A stretch of DNA of 5,807 nucleotides from Candidatus Sumerlaeota bacterium. GTDB lineage: Bacteria > Sumerlaeota > Sumerlaeia > JAFGJS01. The stretch lies in the NCBI GenBank assembly GCA_016928995.1, contig JAFGJS010000132.1, forward strand, positions 1 through 5,807, written 5' to 3'. The position numbers were made by a program, and so were the translations under genes. This document shows, piece by piece, positions 1-5,807 of this stretch; positions within the stretch are counted from its first letter, which is position 1; each line of letters opens with the position of its first letter. The notes below the pieces were generated by a model. It saw nothing but the letters and a program-made list of their open reading frames with translations. It made no database searches and was not told the origin of the DNA.

Positions 1-1
1 A

Positions 2-87
2 AAAACGTTAAAAAACTGCGATTCCGGAGGCAAGAAAAACCACCTTAAAAAATCGATTTTTTGTCTAGACAGAGGGGACAAGCTCAT
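2..87 (+). repeat. 86-bp terminal inverted repeat, left copy
   Basis: This stretch is identical, in reverse complement, to 5722-5807 at the other end of the window. It contains a 16-bp perfect palindrome (AAAAAATCGATTTTTT, 47-62), overlapped by a 10-bp palindrome (TGTCTAGACA, 62-71), and then AGAGGGGACAAGCTCAT at the inner edge. The outer edge coincides with the window end, so the real repeat may be longer. Motifs of the GGGGACA type are known from REP/MITE-like repeats linked to IS200-like (RAYT) transposases; assigning this repeat to that class is inference. The partial gene at 2-409 reads through it without a stop. Confidence 0.95.
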
Positions 88-409
88 CTATCAATCGAGT
101 GATGCCTCATTCGGCGCTAAAATCACGAATAATAATCCAAGCAATGCGATCGAAATCCTATCAAAAGAGAGCAAATATTTACATGATGAACTGGAAAAAT
201 ATAAAAAATACTATGATATATATCCTGAGTCATTGAAAGAATTAAACATCGATATAACACCTCCTAGCATAGGGGCTAGAGAGTGGAATTATCAAGCAAG
301 TAAAAATGGAACGATGTATTATCTAAGTGTAGATTATGATCCACAATATTATATGTATGAAAGTTGGTTTTTTTCTTCTGAATATAATACATGGCACAGT
401 GATAGTTGA
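2..409 (+). CDS. Hypothetical protein, C-terminal part, 5' end missing
   Basis: The frame is open from the window edge to a TGA at 407-409 (135 codons), and it has no ATG, GTG or TTG start that could give the whole protein, so the beginning lies outside or is lost. I do not recognise the family. About 55 residues in there is a helix-like charged stretch (KYLHDELEKYKKYY) followed by YPESLKEL, then PPS, W.Y and several aromatic-rich strands ending in W-H-S-D-S. A Y..YP.SL.EL segment followed by short beta-rich sequence resembles C-terminal parts of pseudopilin-like or other secreted hypothetical proteins; that is a weak analogy. The first 28 codons lie in the terminal repeat and may not be original coding sequence, so the gene could be a remnant cut by the repeat. 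GC content is far below that of the genes from 514 onward, suggesting different ancestry. Confidence 0.6.
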   Translation, partial: KTLKNCDSGGKKNHLKKSIFCLDRGDKLIYQSSDASFGAKITNNNPSNAIEILSKESKYLHDELEKYKKYYDIYPESLKELNIDITPPSIGAREWNYQASKNGTMYYLSVDYDPQYYMYESWFFSSEYNTWHSDS

Positions 410-433
410 CAAGAGCTATATAGATATTATCAT
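406..433 (+). promoter_or_regulatory. Predicted sigma-70-type promoter for the prenyltransferase
   Basis: A perfect -35 hexamer TTGACA (406-411) is followed, after 16 bases, by TATCAT (428-433), which matches the -10 consensus at five of six positions. Its -35 box overlaps the TGA stop of the preceding frame. Transcription would start near 440 and give a leader of about 75 bases. A second isolated TATAAT lies at 504-509, just before the ATG at 514, but has no good -35 partner. Promoter motifs are common by chance in AT-rich DNA. Confidence 0.45.
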
Positions 434-513
434 GAACTTCACATTTGTCAGTTAGAATATTCACATCAATATATTACACATACATTAAGAGTCATGCTTC
501 GCGTATAATATCA

Positions 514-1395
514 ATGAATCTTGCCAGAAAAATACAATACTTCATGTCGATGATCAAGATCGCGCATATGGTTTTTGCGTTGCCGTTTGCGCTGGCGGCG
601 ATGTGTCTGGCGGCGATGCGGCGCGGAGGAACGCCGTGGCCGGCCTGGCAGGAGGCGGCGCTGATCCTGCTCGCTTGCTATGCGGCGCGCACGGCGGCGA
701 TGACCTACAACCGGATCGCAGACCGCGAGATCGACGCGCAGAATCCGCGCACGAAAAACCGAGAGCTCGTCACAGGCGCGCTCTCGCTGAATTTCGCACG
801 CATGATGCTGATCGTCCATGTCGCGCTATTCGTGCTCGCGGCCTGGGGTTTGAACACGCTGGCGCTGGCGCTCAGCCCGGTCTGTCTCGCCGTGCTGCTG
901 GGTTACAGCCACATGAAACGTTTCAGCTGGCTGTCGCATGCAGGGTTGGGGCTGGCGCTGGGACTCGCGCCGGTGGGCGCCTGGATCGCCATTGAAGGCG
1001 CCGCCGCATTCCAACGGCCGGAGCCATGGCTGCTGATGCTTAGCGTGTTCTGCTGGGTTGCCGGATTCGACGTCATCTACGCCTGTCAGGATTACGAAAC
1101 AGACCTGCGCATCGGTCTGCGCTCTATCCCCGCGCGCTTCGGACTGGCCGGGGCGTTTCGCATCACTCACGCCCTGCATTTTCTATCCGGCGCCGGTTTC
1201 TTCGTCTTCTGGCGCGTCGCCGGGCTGGGCTGGCTCAGTCTCGGCGGCATCATCCTGATGTGCATGCTGCTGGCATACGAGAACGCCATCATCACCCCGC
1301 GCGACCAATCGCGACTGAACACGGCCTTTTTCACGGTCAACGGCGTCGTCAGTCTAATGTTCTTCGTCTGCGTCCTGGGCGATCTGTTGCTTTAA
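514..1395 (+). CDS. mqnP: UbiA-family prenyltransferase, MqnP-like (menaquinone biosynthesis)
   Basis: An integral membrane aromatic prenyltransferase of the UbiA superfamily, which transfers a polyprenyl chain from its diphosphate to an aromatic acceptor. Both Asp-rich, Mg-diphosphate-binding motifs are present: NRIADREID (66-74) and Y179xxxD183xxxD187 in YACQDYETD. The N-terminal IKIAHMVFALPFALAA and AARTAAMTYNR, followed by NPRTKNREL, are typical of the subfamily annotated as putative 4-hydroxybenzoate polyprenyltransferase, which includes MqnP of the futalosine menaquinone pathway. About eight to nine hydrophobic segments cover the 293 residues, the normal family length. The ATG at 514 was chosen because the family begins shortly before the first helix; the frame extends to a TTG at 445, but those 23 residues are AT-rich and unlike the family. 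ATG 544 is also possible. No clear Shine-Dalgarno precedes either. A role as UbiA in ubiquinone synthesis cannot be excluded; no other quinone gene is nearby. Confidence 0.85.
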   Translation: MNLARKIQYFMSMIKIAHMVFALPFALAAMCLAAMRRGGTPWPAWQEAALILLACYAARTAAMTYNRIADREIDAQNPRTKNRELVTGALSLNFARMMLIVHVALFVLAAWGLNTLALALSPVCLAVLLGYSHMKRFSWLSHAGLGLALGLAPVGAWIAIEGAAAFQRPEPWLLMLSVFCWVAGFDVIYACQDYETDLRIGLRSIPARFGLAGAFRITHALHFLSGAGFFVFWRVAGLGWLSLGGIILMCMLLAYENAIITPRDQSRLNTAFFTVNGVVSLMFFVCVLGDLLL

Positions 1396-1417
1396 GCATT
1401 CCACACAAAAGTTTCGT

Positions 1418-1446
1418 TTGACAGCCGCCGATAAGCATACCATCAT
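1418..1446 (+). promoter_or_regulatory. Predicted promoter of rpsO
   Basis: A consensus -35 TTGACA (1418-1423) is followed, after 17 bases, by CATCAT (1441-1446), four of six matches to TATAAT. It sits in the 167-base gap between the prenyltransferase stop and rpsO, giving a leader of about 110 bases. S15 represses its own translation through leader RNA structures in several bacteria; I see only short stems here (for example CCGC 1500-1503 with GCGG 1512-1515) and cannot identify an S15-binding element. No terminator is visible for the prenyltransferase, so read-through into rpsO is possible. Confidence 0.45.
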
Positions 1447-1562
1447 AGCGCTTCCTTGATCGAGATCGGTCTGGAAACGCCACCGCATGCTCAGTTTGTC
1501 CGCTTTCTCCGGCGGCATACCGGGATGCAGGTGTAGATTACTGAAAAAGCAGGAGATGGAAC

Positions 1563-1832
1563 ATGTCGATTACACCGACACGCAAAACCGAAGTGATTGA
1601 TGAGTACAAAACGCACGACGGCGACACCGGCTCGCCCGAGGTGCAAGTGGCCGTGCTCACCGAACGGATCAAGAATCTGACGGAGCACTTCAAGAAACAC
1701 AAGAAAGACCACAATTCCCGCCGGGGCCTGCTAATGCTGGTCGGCCAGCGCAAACGAATCCTGAAGTACCTGCAAGGCAAGGATATCGGACGCTACCGCA
1801 CTCTGATCGGGCGCTTGGGAATTCGCGGATAA
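1563..1832 (+). CDS. rpsO: 30S ribosomal protein S15
   Basis: Small-subunit ribosomal protein that binds 16S rRNA at the central-domain three-way junction early in 30S assembly. The 89 residues equal the usual bacterial length, and the family signatures are all present: [17 protein letters not shown] (about 21-37), [19 protein letters not shown] (about 39-57) and the basic [12 protein letters not shown] stretch, ending in Y-R-x-L-I-x-R-L-G-I-R-G. A good Shine-Dalgarno (AGGAGA, 1551-1556) lies six bases before the ATG, which fixes the start. The gene has its own predicted promoter and is closed by a strong hairpin terminator nine bases after the stop. pnp follows 415 bases downstream, the classical rpsO-pnp pairing, although the spacer is unusually long and structured. 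The sequence looks complete and intact. Confidence 0.99.
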
Positions 1833-1840
1833 ACGCAAAC

Positions 1841-1879
1841 AAAGGGCCGGCTTGCCGCCGGCCCTTTTGAGTTTATTTT
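1841..1879 (+). terminator. Intrinsic terminator after rpsO
   Basis: A perfect 11-bp stem (AAAGGGCCGGC, 1841-1851, with GCCGGCCCTTT, 1857-1867) closes a five-base loop and runs into TTTTGAGTTTATTTT. It begins nine bases after the rpsO stop. It should end or attenuate rpsO transcripts, so pnp probably depends on partial read-through or its own promoter. Confidence 0.9.
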
Positions 1880-1911
1880 GGGAGTGAAGCGAGAAATGGC
1901 TGAGGACCGTC

Positions 1912-2106
1912 TCACGACGGATGAGGCCGCCACGAGTGCACACGTGCATTCACGAACATGCCGATCCAACTGCTCGTTCGTGAGCGCTCGCGTTCATTCG
2001 TGGCGTTCAAACCACACCTCAGACAGCACGCCACATAATCCGGCGTAAGTTTCGCTCCCCATCAATACAGACTTAACGGGCCATAGCGCCCGGCAAGCCC
2101 GGCCAT
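1912..2106 (-). pseudogene. Possible decayed small reading frame between rpsO and pnp
   Basis: On the minus strand, an ATG at 2106-2104 opens a 64-codon frame ending in TGA (1914-1912), interrupted by one in-frame TGA at 2064-2062. It reads MAGLAGRYGPLSLY, stop, then WGAKLTPDYVACC, LRCGLNATNERERSRTSSW and on to the end. The sequence around the stop (Y-stop-W) fits a TGG to TGA change. I do not know a function, and a spurious frame inside a repeated intergenic element is an equal explanation. The frame covers the whole 29-bp inverted repeat at 1929-2004, and its start lies in a small hairpin. No ribosome binding site is obvious. Confidence 0.25.
1929..2004. repeat. Imperfect 29-bp inverted repeat in the rpsO-pnp spacer
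   Basis: The arms are 1929-1957 and 1976-2004, with an 18-base loop. When one arm is reverse-complemented, 23 of 29 positions agree. The outer seven (GCCACGA) and the inner eight (TCACGAAC) match perfectly. The six differences fall at arm positions 8, 11, 14, 17, 20 and 21, so five are spaced exactly three apart; two would be G-U pairs in RNA. The CACGAATG-like core resembles short dispersed intergenic repeats seen in several environmental bacteria; this link is from memory and unverified. Confidence 0.7.
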
Positions 2107-2114
2107 GAGGCCGG
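2099..2114. other. Small perfect GC hairpin
   Basis: CCGGCC (2099-2104) and GGCCGG (2109-2114) form a six-bp stem with an ATGA loop. No T-run follows on the plus strand, so it is not a standard terminator. The same CCGGCC/GGCCGG words recur at 2135-2140, 2197-2202 and 2226-2233 and could pair in alternative ways. Confidence 0.5.
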
Positions 2115-2145
2115 AGATAAATCATATAAACCACGGCCGGCAAAG

Positions 2146-2200
2146 GGCTTTCCACGCGGCGCCATGCACGTTCCATCGGCACGGCGCGACGTGGAAGGCC
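2146..2200 (+). promoter_or_regulatory. Large hairpin in the pnp leader
   Basis: Bases 2146-2163 pair with 2183-2200 to form an 18-position stem with a single two-by-two internal mismatch (2157-2158 opposite 2188-2189), one G-U pair and a 19-base loop. It ends 47 bases before the pnp start. In Escherichia coli, PNPase represses its own mRNA after RNase III cuts a leader stem-loop in this same location; a comparable role here is inference from position and shape. Confidence 0.55.
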
Positions 2201-2220
2201 GGCGAATATGCCGCCAATTG

Positions 2221-2239
2221 CTTTTCCGGCCGGGAAGGA
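2221..2239 (+). promoter_or_regulatory. pnp ribosome binding site within a potential hairpin
   Basis: GGAAGGA (2233-2239) is a good Shine-Dalgarno eight bases before the pnp ATG. CTTTTCC (2221-2227) can pair with GGGAAGG (2232-2238) across a GGCC loop, with two G-U pairs, which would hide it. CCGGCC at 2226-2231 can instead pair with GGCCGG at 2197-2202, in the right arm of the larger hairpin. The structures are therefore partly exclusive, a layout compatible with translational control. Confidence 0.45.
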
Positions 2240-2247
2240 TCAATTAA

Positions 2248-4518
2248 ATGATTCACAACTACCAGTTGCCATTCGGCAACGGCAACGATCTCAAAGTCGA
2301 GATCGGCAAAGTCGCCAAACAGGCTCACGCATCGATCTGGGCCAGTTGGGGCGACACCGTCGTCCTTGCGGCCATGGTCTTCGGACCGGACGCCCGCGGG
2401 GTGGATTATTTCCCGCTGTTCATCGACTATCGCGACAAGATGTACGCCGATGGACGCATCCCCGGCAGTTTCTTCCGCCGCGAAGGACGCCCCACGGATC
2501 ATGAAACGCTTAAGGCGCGCATCGTGGACCGTCCGTTGCGTCCGCTCTTCCCCGATCACTATCGCGACGAGGTGCAGATTTTCCTGAACACCTACTCGGT
2601 CGATCAAGAGCACGTCGATTATGTCATCTCGGTCAACGCCGCGTCGCTCGCGCTGTTGATCAGCGCCTGTCCGTTTACAAAGCCGGTCGGCTGCGTTCGC
2701 GTTGGCCGCATTGACGGCGAGCTGAAAGTCAACCCGACGATCAGCGAGATGAAAACCAGCGACGTGGACCTGCTTGTCGCCGGCACCAAAGACGCGATCA
2801 ACATGGTCGAATGCGGCTCGAATTTCGTGGAAGAATCCGTGCTAATCGACGGCCTGCGCCTGGCGCACGACAAAATCCAGGAAATCTGCGCCTGGCAGGA
2901 AAGCATCCGCGCCGAGATCGGGCAGCCGAAAATCGAAGTCCTCAAACCCGAAATCAACGAAGAAGTCTTCAACGAGGCCGTGCTGCTGGCCGAAACCAAG
3001 TTGGAGCCAGTTTACGCCATCACGGAAAAAGTCGAGCGCTCCGACAAACTGGACGCATGCAAGCAGGAAATCTGCGACGCGATGCTGGAGAACCTTGGCG
3101 AAGAAGCGTACACGGAAAATCTGAAGACGATCATCGGCGCCATTGATACAGTGTATAAAAAACGTGTGCGCCTGGAAACGCTGAAAGGCAATCGCACCGA
3201 TGGCCGGGATTTGAAGGAAATCCGGCCGATCACCGTGGAAGCCGGCACGCTCCCCCGCGCACATGGCTCCGGTCTGTTCACACGCGGACAAACCCAGTCG
3301 CTCGGCGTCTGCACGCTGGGCACCAAGACCGAACAGATGCTGATCGACGACATCCGCGGCGTGTATGACCGCCATTACTTCCTGCATTACAACTTCCCCG
3401 GATGGAGCGTGGGCGAGGTTCGTCCGGCGCGCGGCCCGGGCCGTCGCGAGATCGGCCACGGCAACCTGGCTGAAAAATCCATCGAGCCGGTCCTGCCCGA
3501 GCATCCCGGCTTCCCCTACACCATCCGCCTGGTTTCCGAAATCCTCGAATCGAACGGTTCGAGCTCGATGGCCAGCGTATGCAGCTGCTGCCTGGCGTTG
3601 ATGGACTGCGGCGTGCCGATCAAGGCGCCCGTGGCCGGCATCGCCATGGGCCTGATCATGGATGAGGAAAGCGGCAAGTACGTCGTGCTGAGCGACATCG
3701 CCGGCATCGAGGATCATCTCGGCGACATGGACTTCAAAGTCGCCGGCACGAAAGACGGCGTCACGGCCCTGCAGATGGACATCAAGATCGAAGGCGTGAC
3801 GATTGAGATCATGGAAAAGGCCCTGGCGCAAGCCAAGGAGGGCCGCCTGCACATCCTCGGCAAAATGACCGACGTGCTGGCCGAACCGCGCCCCGAGCTT
3901 TCCAAGTGGGCGCCGCGCATGGAGCAGATCAAAATCCCGCAGGACAAGATCGGCGCGCTGATCGGCCCCGGCGGCAAGAACATCCGCGAAATCTGCGAGA
4001 CCACCAAGTGCAAGATCGACGTCGAGGAAGACGGCACCGTGATCCTCGCCGGCGTGGACGGCGAAATGATGAAGCTCGCCATCAAACTCGTCGAGCAATG
4101 CACCGCCGTGCCGGAAGCGGGCAAGATTTACACCGGCAAGGTCCGCTCGATCCAGAACTTCGGCATCTTCGTCGAAATCCTGCCGGGCATCGACGGTATG
4201 TGCCACATCAGCGAACTCGTGGCGGATCGCCGCCTGGAATGCGTCGAGGAATTCTGCTCCCTCGGCGACACGGTCACCGTAAAATGCACCGACGTGGACA
4301 GCGCCACGGGCAAGACGCGTCTCAGCCGCACCGAGGCGCTCAAGGAACTCGGCGAATTGAACAATGAAACCTTGAACCCGAGCTGGACCCAGGGCGATCC
4401 CCTGCCGAAACGCGATGATGGCCGTGGCGGACGCGGCGGCGGCGGCAATCGCGGCGGCGGACGTGATCGTGATCGCGGCGGACGCGGCGGACGTGGCGGA
4501 GGCGGCGGACGCCGTTAA
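2248..4518 (+). CDS. pnp: Polynucleotide phosphorylase (polyribonucleotide nucleotidyltransferase)
   Basis: Phosphorolytic 3'-5' exoribonuclease that releases nucleoside diphosphates, acts in mRNA turnover, forms a trimeric ring and often joins the RNA degradosome in the cytoplasm. The 756 residues show the full domain order: first RNase PH core (about 10-140, with FFRREGRP at 75-82), helical linker (about 240-310), second catalytic RNase PH core (about 320-545), KH domain (about 558-615, GPGG loop at 573-576) and S1 domain (about 625-695). The active-site residues are intact: R399-R400 in GRREIGHG, S438-S440 for phosphate, and D489, D495 and K497 in EDHLGDMDFK. After S1 comes an Arg/Gly-rich tail absent from the 711-residue E. 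coli enzyme. The protein has 18 cysteines, including a cluster C445, C447, C448 and C454. Start chosen from the Shine-Dalgarno GGAAGGA eight bases upstream and the usual MIHNYQ-type N-terminus. Confidence 0.99.
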   Translation: MIHNYQLPFGNGNDLKVEIGKVAKQAHASIWASWGDTVVLAAMVFGPDARGVDYFPLFIDYRDKMYADGRIPGSFFRREGRPTDHETLKARIVDRPLRPLFPDHYRDEVQIFLNTYSVDQEHVDYVISVNAASLALLISACPFTKPVGCVRVGRIDGELKVNPTISEMKTSDVDLLVAGTKDAINMVECGSNFVEESVLIDGLRLAHDKIQEICAWQESIRAEIGQPKIEVLKPEINEEVFNEAVLLAETKLEPVYAITEKVERSDKLDACKQEICDAMLENLGEEAYTENLKTIIGAIDTVYKKRVRLETLKGNRTDGRDLKEIRPITVEAGTLPRAHGSGLFTRGQTQSLGVCTLGTKTEQMLIDDIRGVYDRHYFLHYNFPGWSVGEVRPARGPGRREIGHGNLAEKSIEPVLPEHPGFPYTIRLVSEILESNGSSSMASVCSCCLALMDCGVPIKAPVAGIAMGLIMDEESGKYVVLSDIAGIEDHLGDMDFKVAGTKDGVTALQMDIKIEGVTIEIMEKALAQAKEGRLHILGKMTDVLAEPRPELSKWAPRMEQIKIPQDKIGALIGPGGKNIREICETTKCKIDVEEDGTVILAGVDGEMMKLAIKLVEQCTAVPEAGKIYTGKVRSIQNFGIFVEILPGIDGMCHISELVADRRLECVEEFCSLGDTVTVKCTDVDSATGKTRLSRTEALKELGELNNETLNPSWTQGDPLPKRDDGRGGRGGGGNRGGGRDRDRGGRGGRGGGGGRR
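4420..4515 (+). repeat. GGCGGACG-type tandem repeat encoding an RGG tail in pnp
   Basis: The last 32 codons before the stop consist almost only of Gly and Arg, with a DRDR interruption (residues 740-743) and one Asn. The DNA is a run of near-identical nine-base units such as CGCGGCGGA, which is prone to slippage and length change. RGG-rich tails are known to bind RNA non-specifically in other RNA enzymes, which fits a role in holding substrate. Confidence 0.8.
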
Positions 4519-4550
4519 CCGCACAACGCTTCATGACAGCATCGAAAACA

Positions 4551-4586
4551 GACACCCCGCCGAAATATTCCCGGCGGGGTGTTTTG
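4551..4586. terminator. Bidirectional intrinsic terminator between pnp and the convergent block
   Basis: An 11-bp perfect stem (ACACCCCGCCG, 4552-4562, with CGGCGGGGTGT, 4572-4582) closes a nine-base loop and is followed on the plus strand by TTTTGCTTC. On the minus strand the same hairpin is followed by CTGTTTTC. It lies 33 bases after the pnp stop and eight bases beyond the end of the minus-strand efflux remnant, so it can end transcription arriving from both sides. Confidence 0.85.
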
Positions 4587-4593
4587 CTTCATT

Positions 4594-4815
4594 CTAAAGC
4601 GATGTGTCGTTTTCCTTGATGGCCGTGATTTCCAAACGTCCGATGGCATGCTAGCATTGCAGCCGGCTGAGAGTATGATCGATCTGTGCGGCCGTCAGGC
4701 TGTTTTGCGCGTAGAGCAGTTCATCCTGAACATCGGCCATTTCGCGCGCCGTGGTTTGACCCGAAGCCAGCATCATTTGCGTGCCCTCAACGCGGCGTCC
4801 GGAGAGTTGAACGCT
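4594..4815 (-). pseudogene. Outer-membrane efflux protein (TolC/OEP family), C-terminal remnant
   Basis: Reading the minus strand from 4815 gives SVQLSGRRVEGTQMML, then ASGQTTAREMADVQDELLYA, then QNSLTAAQIDHTLSRLQC, an in-frame TAG (4653-4651), and in the same frame HAIGRLEITAIKENDTSL before a final TAG (4596-4594). This matches the last helical repeat of TolC-like efflux channels, where a VE.A..ML..G..T.R...D.Q..LL.AQN.LT.A..DY..A...L pattern leads to an L.R..G.LE end. Only about 73 of the usual 420-500 residues remain. A stop (4818-4816) closes the frame upstream, next to the 3' end of the membrane protein gene, so the 5' part has been lost. The internal TAG fits mutation of a TGG or Tyr codon. 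Together, truncation and nonsense codon mark a dead gene. Rearrangement that brought in the neighbouring gene is the simplest explanation; a misassembly at this join would look similar. Confidence 0.75.
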
Positions 4816-4823
4816 TTATTGAT

Positions 4824-5696
4824 TTATCGGGAAACCGGTTCATGCGTCGGATTTTTATCGGATTGTTCATTGAGCTGTTCCCGGTGTTTAGATTGGATGT
4901 ATTGCCATTCTTCGGCGTACGTCTCGCGATGGCGAATCCAACTGGCGCTGCCGGTCAACATCAACGCCATCAGAATCAGGATCAATGTCGGGATGATTTT
5001 TTCAAGGCCGCTGATCTCCCCAGGATTTCGAAAGACCGTGACCGCGCCAAAAAGCAAAAGCGGCAGGATCACCATTAAACTGGCGACATATCCGATCATC
5101 AAGCCGATGCAATGCGAAGCGTTCATCATCGGAGTCAAGGTTAATGCTCCTCCAACGAGCATCATGATTGACAGCATGAAGGCAATCGAGATGTTCATGC
5201 TGGGATTGGCGACGACAGGCGGATTCTGCTGCAGATCGGCGCTGATCAGCCGTTCGGCGAGTCGCTCCAAATACTTGCCTTCTCCTGTGTCGGCGACAAT
5301 GAACTCGCGGTATTGTATGGTCAACGATAGGTTCGTATTATCGCCTTCGGCATTTAGGTTGACGCTGGCTTTTAATGGCAATTCCGCGTGTTTATAAGCG
5401 GTCATGGGATTATGAGGATCGTGTTTCACGCCTTTACGGCTTGCCCGAATCGAAAGGCCCGGCTCCGATTCTTCAATCGTGAATCCGTCATAATTTAAGC
5501 GGTCGATGAAGAGCTGCCAGACTTTGTCAGGTTCGACGTTTGTGTATTGAATTTCGCGAGCGTGCTTGAGGAAGCCAAATTTCCTTCCGCCGAACAAAGC
5601 CAGCAACAAAGGTTCTAGAATAGGGCTGAACAAGACGATGATTATCCAGAAAATTAGCACAACGCCGACGGCATGTCCGTTGATCGCGGATTCCAT
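4824..5696 (-). CDS. Membrane protein of unknown function, four predicted helices
   Basis: I do not recognise this 290-residue protein. A long hydrophobic N-terminal segment (about 8-36) is followed by a soluble region (about 37-165) with alternating strands and a helix, containing REIQYTNVEPDKVWQLFIDR and ending in a charged helix KYLERLAERL. Three more hydrophobic helices follow (about 168-191, 195-222, 232-254), then a charged tail of 36 residues rich in Glu, Gln and Lys. The soluble part, with its V..DKVW..F...L startup, is faintly like SRPBCC/START-type folds; this is a weak guess. The ATG at 5696 is supported by a strong Shine-Dalgarno GAGGGGAG (5709-5702), five bases away. The inner edge of the 86-bp terminal repeat lies only 25 bases upstream of the ATG, so the promoter must sit in or beyond the repeat. 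GC is lower than in pnp, and the gene abuts a truncated efflux gene, suggesting later arrival. Confidence 0.8.
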   Translation of the reverse strand: MESAINGHAVGVVLIFWIIIVLFSPILEPLLLALFGGRKFGFLKHAREIQYTNVEPDKVWQLFIDRLNYDGFTIEESEPGLSIRASRKGVKHDPHNPMTAYKHAELPLKASVNLNAEGDNTNLSLTIQYREFIVADTGEGKYLERLAERLISADLQQNPPVVANPSMNISIAFMLSIMMLVGGALTLTPMMNASHCIGLMIGYVASLMVILPLLLFGAVTVFRNPGEISGLEKIIPTLILILMALMLTGSASWIRHRETYAEEWQYIQSKHREQLNEQSDKNPTHEPVSR

Positions 5697-5721
5697 GAAG
5701 TCTCCCCTCGCTTGATATGAA

Positions 5722-5807
5722 ATGAGCTTGTCCCCTCTGTCTAGACAAAAAATCGATTTTTTAAGGTGGTTTTTCTTGCCTCCGGAATCGCAGTTTTTTA
5801 ACGTTTT
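5722..5807 (-). repeat. 86-bp terminal inverted repeat, right copy
   Basis: Exact reverse complement of 2-87, with the same palindromes (AAAAAATCGATTTTTT at 5747-5762, TGTCTAGACA at 5738-5747). Here it lies upstream of the minus-strand membrane protein gene and appears non-coding, unlike the left copy, where a reading frame passes through. Identity stops at 5721/88 on the inner side and is limited by the window edge on the outer side. Confidence 0.95.

Follow-up and report, generated by a model that had tools for sequence, protein, structure and literature searches.

We analysed a complete contig of 5,807 nucleotides (the window; JAFGJS010000132.1, here C18) from the Candidatus Sumerlaeota bacterium genome GCA_016928995.1, which comprises 4,546,854 bases in 161 contigs. 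Its genes, among them ubiA, rpsO and pnp, lie between two terminal inverted repeats. A repeat search of the window showed that these arms, at 2–87 and 5722–5807, are 86 nt long and 100% reverse-complementary, in agreement with an earlier note on this DNA; the runner-up inverted pair had 31 nt at 71% identity, placing the arms far beyond chance. Bases 87 and 5722 match because both flanks start with T (TCT... and TTT...). Since the boundary lies right after ...GGGGACAAGCTCA in all 14 copies found, the repeat proper was assigned to 1–86 on the left and 5723–5807 on the right. The inner edge proposed in the earlier note was the true element boundary in every copy, save for its final T, which belongs to the flank.

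We are highly confident that both window ends are the right ends of a multi-copy insertion sequence (IS) of the IS3 family, truncated where assembly stopped. This is a common situation and a known kind of element; the set of copies is new, and not the kind. The two copies lie in opposite orientation with their right ends inward and bracket about 5.6 kb of host chromosome. The outer limit of the arms is a branch point of the assembly graph and not a biological edge, and the repeat runs on beyond both window ends. The body of the left copy lies to the left of the window, and its transposase should read toward the window. An RNA-family reading was addressed by an Rfam search of the window, which gave no match.

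When window 1–87 was used to query the genome, 14 matches were obtained, all with 100% identity and all at contig ends, where 82–86 bp of the repeat stood beside 14 different flanks; 12 contigs besides C18 were involved. A search with the outer 25 bp of the right end, allowing 3 mismatches, returned the same 14 places only. The genome search with copy count and edges that the earlier note had suggested thus gave 14 copies with a constant boundary, bearing out its proposal of a multi-copy element at which assembly had stopped. The exact 24-mer of the right end had no match in the genome collection, which leaves the present genome as the only one in which this exact variant was found; a search of viral contigs with the 24-mer and a plasmid search for the right end also gave none. 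A 17-nt match in a relative (G019, L030) was dropped as chance; it lay among unrelated genes without a transposase.

Left ends, target duplications and interrupted genes

A second family of ends, CTCTCC...ATCCACCTTAATGGCTGTCCAGTTTTTGGGGACAATTATA directly followed by the flank, emerged when 197 contig ends were compared; a genome-wide search placed it at 15 contig ends and nowhere else. Its layout resembles that of the right end, with GTC.AG.....GGGGACAA at the tip and CCACCTTA further in, and the two ends carry imperfect inverted repeats that pair TATAATTGTCCCCAAAAACTGGAC..TTAAGGTGGATTTTTCT on the left with TGAGCTTGTCCCCTCTGTCTAGAC..TTAAGGTGGTTTTTCT on the right (local alignment, P=0.014). At least 14 right and 15 left ends could be seen, and the data imply a few others. 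A 3-bp target duplication paired 8 of the 14 right ends with left ends, compared with a chance mean of 2.85 (random positions, same flanks; P=0.0015), and the pairing count was highest when both tips were placed at the observed boundary. Target duplications in the IS3 family are 3–5 bp long, a range that includes the 3 bp found here.

Furthermore, four of these pairs (C18+C72, C151+C113, C56+C75 and C5+C79) rejoined in frame. The join of C18 and C72, with the target duplication TCT, reads ...GLGDEFWF/YQSSDASF... in a frame of 206 residues, and the other three joins gave open frames of 548, 511 and 225 residues, respectively. Because the TCT duplication and the frame continue on C72, the left copy was inserted independently, into a gene reaching into the window. 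This gene (window 87–409 plus C72) encodes a lipobox-containing protein with two similar halves (YPESL.EL...RPSIG.. and YPESLKELN...PPSIG..), and a 41%-identical relative was seen at C129:72760-73041. For C151+C113, a distant genome has an uninterrupted homologous frame of 548 residues, in which residues 29–181 matched the first half (E=1e-14) and residues 235–544 the second (E=6e-30), whereas the joined protein was colinear across the junction with E=4e-45, better than either half (E-values from a one-sequence comparison). Given this colinear, uninterrupted homologue, the right end of C151 and the left end of C113 represent one insertion. A target duplication of 5 bp was considered and rejected, as the window's 5-bp partner, C49, joins less well than its 3-bp partner, C72, with its 206-residue frame.

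Several observations weigh against this interpretation. No integrase-core (rve) transposase was found anywhere in the bin, and the element's own coding sequence was unseen; the collapsed interior contig is therefore evidently absent from the bin. Six of the 14 right ends, the right-hand one of the window among them, matched none of the left ends in the bin at 3 bp. In addition, the TAT pairings of C106/C71 with C55/C49 restore no frame, a DUF5343 gene split across C106 and C55 would be about 20 residues short, and two flank pairs match at 5 bp too.

Some contig ends deserve separate mention. At the starts of C106 (L015) and C55 (L171), TAT/ATA was present in both flanks beside the IS element. 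A DUF5343 domain without its first ~43 profile positions makes up the C55 piece, and the C106 piece resembles the N-terminus of that domain; as about 20 residues are absent from the join, a small deletion or two insertions close together may have occurred here. C97 (169 kb) is bounded on each side by a left end of the IS, and C157 (54 kb) by one right end and one left end; large scaffolds of this sort could be ordered by target-duplication pairing.

Relatives with the same ends

The left-end sequence TATAATNNTCCCCAAAAACTGGACAG was present in 55 stretches of other genomes from several phyla. In many of them TTAAGGTG came next, then an AAGGAG resembling a ribosome-binding site and then a start codon, in the same order as at the present left end. 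Seven complete relatives, 1261–1428 bp in length (about 1.2–1.6 kb is usual for the IS3 family), were traced to a right end ...GTCTTGACA..GGGGA..., and several of them end in GGCTCA as the present element does. Exact 3-bp target duplications were found in two of the complete relatives, and 2 of 3 bases matched in three others. The proteins checked from elements with such ends were an OrfA with HTH_Tnp_1 and an OrfB with HTH_21 and rve; OrfB matched NF033516 with E down to 8e-86, well above the curated IS3-family cut-off, and the transposases of the relatives fell far below the IS2-specific NCBIfam cut-offs.

The relatives include uncharacterised elements on plasmid NZ_CP087953.1 of Desulfosarcina sp. 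BuS5 and in bins of Planctomycetota (L213) and Thermodesulfovibrionia (L232), and an element on a Megaera plasmid is alike at its left end and at its right end (GATTTTTAGTCTAGACA...). The left end common to these IS3 relatives and the present element can be written TATAAT..(T)CCCCAAAAACTGGACAG...TTAAGGTG...AAGGAG. Several relatives also have in common with it the right end CCACCTTA...TTTTTTGTCT.GACA..GGGGA...GCTCA; the 3-bp duplication is a further shared feature. In the present right end TAGACA stands where the relatives have TTGACA, and GACAAGCTCA where they have GAGAGGCTCA; the interior of the present element is predicted from the relatives. In a Nitrospirae bin (L204:6097-6314) we observed a related copy of about 100 bp, internally deleted, which has both ends and is without a transposase. 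A further related element begins directly beside it with its left end (GGGGAGGGG meeting TATAATGGACCCC), and the arrangement may represent a remnant like a miniature inverted-repeat transposable element or an insertion at an element tip.

Arm length and the assembler

The depth to which contigs enter the repeat varies, at 82–86 bp per contig, with the likeness between flanks. When the repeat part, the shared flank bases and 1 were added, the sum was exactly 88 in 25 of 29 element ends; it was below 88 in the remaining 4, which fits one more copy outside the bin that shares the first bases of the flank. The contigs begin with the first 88-mer that is unique, which is what a de Bruijn graph with k=87 gives, each contig starting at the first k-mer leaving the repeat. 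Arm length is thus set by the assembler rather than by the element. MEGAHIT runs with a k-max of 87 are in use, both terms occurring for example in PMC8036350, and another bin in the collection (L227) has contigs named k87_; the k=87 of the present genome was deduced from its contig ends.

A comparison of contig ends, a partial survey of 197 ends (both IS end families were counted genome-wide by search), showed that about 120 share a repeat with another end. Further multi-copy end families have the tips ...TTTTTAAATTGGCTC, ...GGGGCACTTGGAAGTTGAATCCGGG, ...GATCAAGATGCGCCC / ...GTCAAGATGCGCCC, ...TTGACGACACGCCCTAG and ...TTTTTCAACGGGCTGCTA, with examples at L043, L044, L063, L099, L108, L147 and L157; at L053, L055, L065, L110, L111 and L126; at L049, L052, L061, L118 and L137; and at L041, L050, L067 and L121. 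With several such families besides the IS3-type element, repeats explain a large share of the breaks in this genome assembly.

Alternative explanations

The earlier note had suggested a palindromic element of the repetitive extragenic palindromic (REP) type, a family that would be mobilised by a Y1-type REP-associated tyrosine transposase (RAYT). The repeat is like REP elements in being a short sequence of many copies with an internal palindrome, which is perfect over 16 bp, but it terminates a DDE-transposase element. Instead of standing free, it forms one terminus of a longer element whose opposite terminus is distinct and whose insertions duplicate 3 bp of target, and elsewhere similar ends bound genes for DDE transposases of the IS3 type. 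Moreover, the AT palindrome said to define the family is not conserved, the same stretch being an imperfect palindrome in related elements. A REP-like family mobilised by a RAYT is thus extremely unlikely, although no search aimed at a Y1 transposase was made, and the right end of an IS3-family element takes its place. The earlier note had also held out, as its alternative, a fold-back chimera made during amplification, considered here as an event in the amplification or assembly of a single molecule. Perfect inverted identity up to both contig ends is what such an event would leave; however, the repeat occurs in 14 copies with different flanks, those on the 12 other contigs being unrelated, the sequences adjoining the two arms of the window differ, and the flank of the left arm rejoins C72 in frame, so that we give a chimera virtually no credence. 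A linear replicon bounded by terminal repeats had already been judged unlikely, and the presence of the repeat on 12 other contigs, together with the enclosed rpsO, pnp and ubiA, upheld that judgement.

The arrangement of two copies of one IS in opposite orientation around the segment could also suggest a composite transposon, in which the 5.6-kb rpsO–pnp segment would be mobile as a unit. Against this, TCT and a reading frame link the left copy's inner flank to the flank outside that copy on C72, and the cargo consists of host core genes. Independent insertion of the left copy therefore makes a composite transposon very improbable (the bin lacks the right copy's outer flank), and we retain truncated IS3-family right ends as the explanation of both arms.

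Features of the window

The features are collected in Table 1. The right-hand insertion point lies about 25 bp upstream of the start codon of the hypothetical membrane protein gene. Between the pnp terminator and this convergent gene, window 4600–4830 is without a convincing gene and may contain a decayed coding sequence.

Table 1. Positions of the IS ends, target duplications and genes in the window
Feature	Position	Strand	Basis
IS3-family right (3′) terminal 86 bp (high confidence), cut by contig end	1–86	+	14 contig ends; anatomy common to complete relatives
Palindrome AAAAAATCGATTTTTT, subterminal region of right end	47–62	.	Palindrome imperfect in related elements
Outer 25 bp of right inverted repeat, TGTCTAGACAGAGGGGACAAGCTCA	62–86	+	Tip at 86; 5′-TGAGC reading inward
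Outward -35-like hexamer TAGACA, 15 nt from tip	66–71	+	TTGACA at same position in 7 complete relatives
TCT, one of the two 3-bp target-duplication copies at the left-hand insertion	87–89	+	Other copy on C72 beside left end (C72:5375-5460)
Gene cut by left-hand insertion, 3′ part	87–409	+	In-frame join with C72; 206-residue frame; lipobox-like N-terminus
UbiA-family prenyltransferase, host core gene	526–1395	+	PF01040, E=4e-50
rpsO, ribosomal protein S15, host core gene	1563–1832	+	PF00312, E=3.6e-38
pnp, polynucleotide phosphorylase, host core gene	2248–4518	+	PF01138/PF03725/PF00013/PF00575
Hypothetical membrane protein gene	4824–5696	-	No Pfam match
TTT, target bases presumably duplicated by the right-hand insertion	5720–5722	-	Partner flank not in bin
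Second IS copy, right terminal 85 bp, opposite orientation, cut by contig end	5723–5807	-	Same repeat
-35-like hexamer TAGACA, second copy	5738–5743	-	Sequence

Discussion

IS3-family elements form a minicircle in which the abutted ends make a strong promoter, and the copy-out/paste-in route of the family is the most likely one here. The full element would be about 1.2–1.4 kb long, with the far end ...CCACCTTAATGGCTGTCCAGTTTTTGGGGACAATTATA (outward). A transposase, probably encoded within the present copies, would join both ends to form a minicircle, and the minicircle would then insert elsewhere, duplicating 3 bp of the target; the copies may still be mobile. At the window, the element entered the chromosome twice, at sites about 5.6 kb apart and in opposite orientations, and a short-read assembler, blocked by copies identical beyond its k-mer, stopped the contig 85–86 bp inside each copy.

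The left tip of the element is TATAAT, a -10-like box. Judging by sequence, we propose that this box and the TAGACA of the right end are the two halves of a minicircle-junction promoter, which may be active and would have an 18-bp spacer if 3 nt lie between the ends. The layout resembles that of IS2, in which the left inverted repeat (IRL) ends in TA and creates a -10 (Pribnow) box, while the right end gives an outward -35 (PMC3219604); here too the left tip would supply the -10 and the right end the -35 of a junction promoter. The spacers differ, with 18 bp and a 3-nt gap in the present element versus 17 bp and a 1-nt gap reported for IS2. The target duplication of IS2 is 5 bp, compared with 3 bp here.

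Where contigs of a metagenome bin end in perfect inverted repeats, these can thus be read as IS ends, the length of their arms being set by the k of the assembler. Such ends allow contigs to be paired by target duplications and interrupted genes to be recovered without long reads. The biology is routine, in that a copy-rich IS3-family element fragments a bacterial genome. A more speculative idea, to which we assign a low probability, is that these ends define an IS3 clade spanning several phyla, with TATAAT at the extreme left tip and TTGACA/TAGACA 15 nt from the right tip. If so, each minicircle of the clade would automatically build a strong promoter, and the clade would represent a distinct IS3 subgroup that unites a promoter layout like that of IS2 with target duplications of 3 bp.

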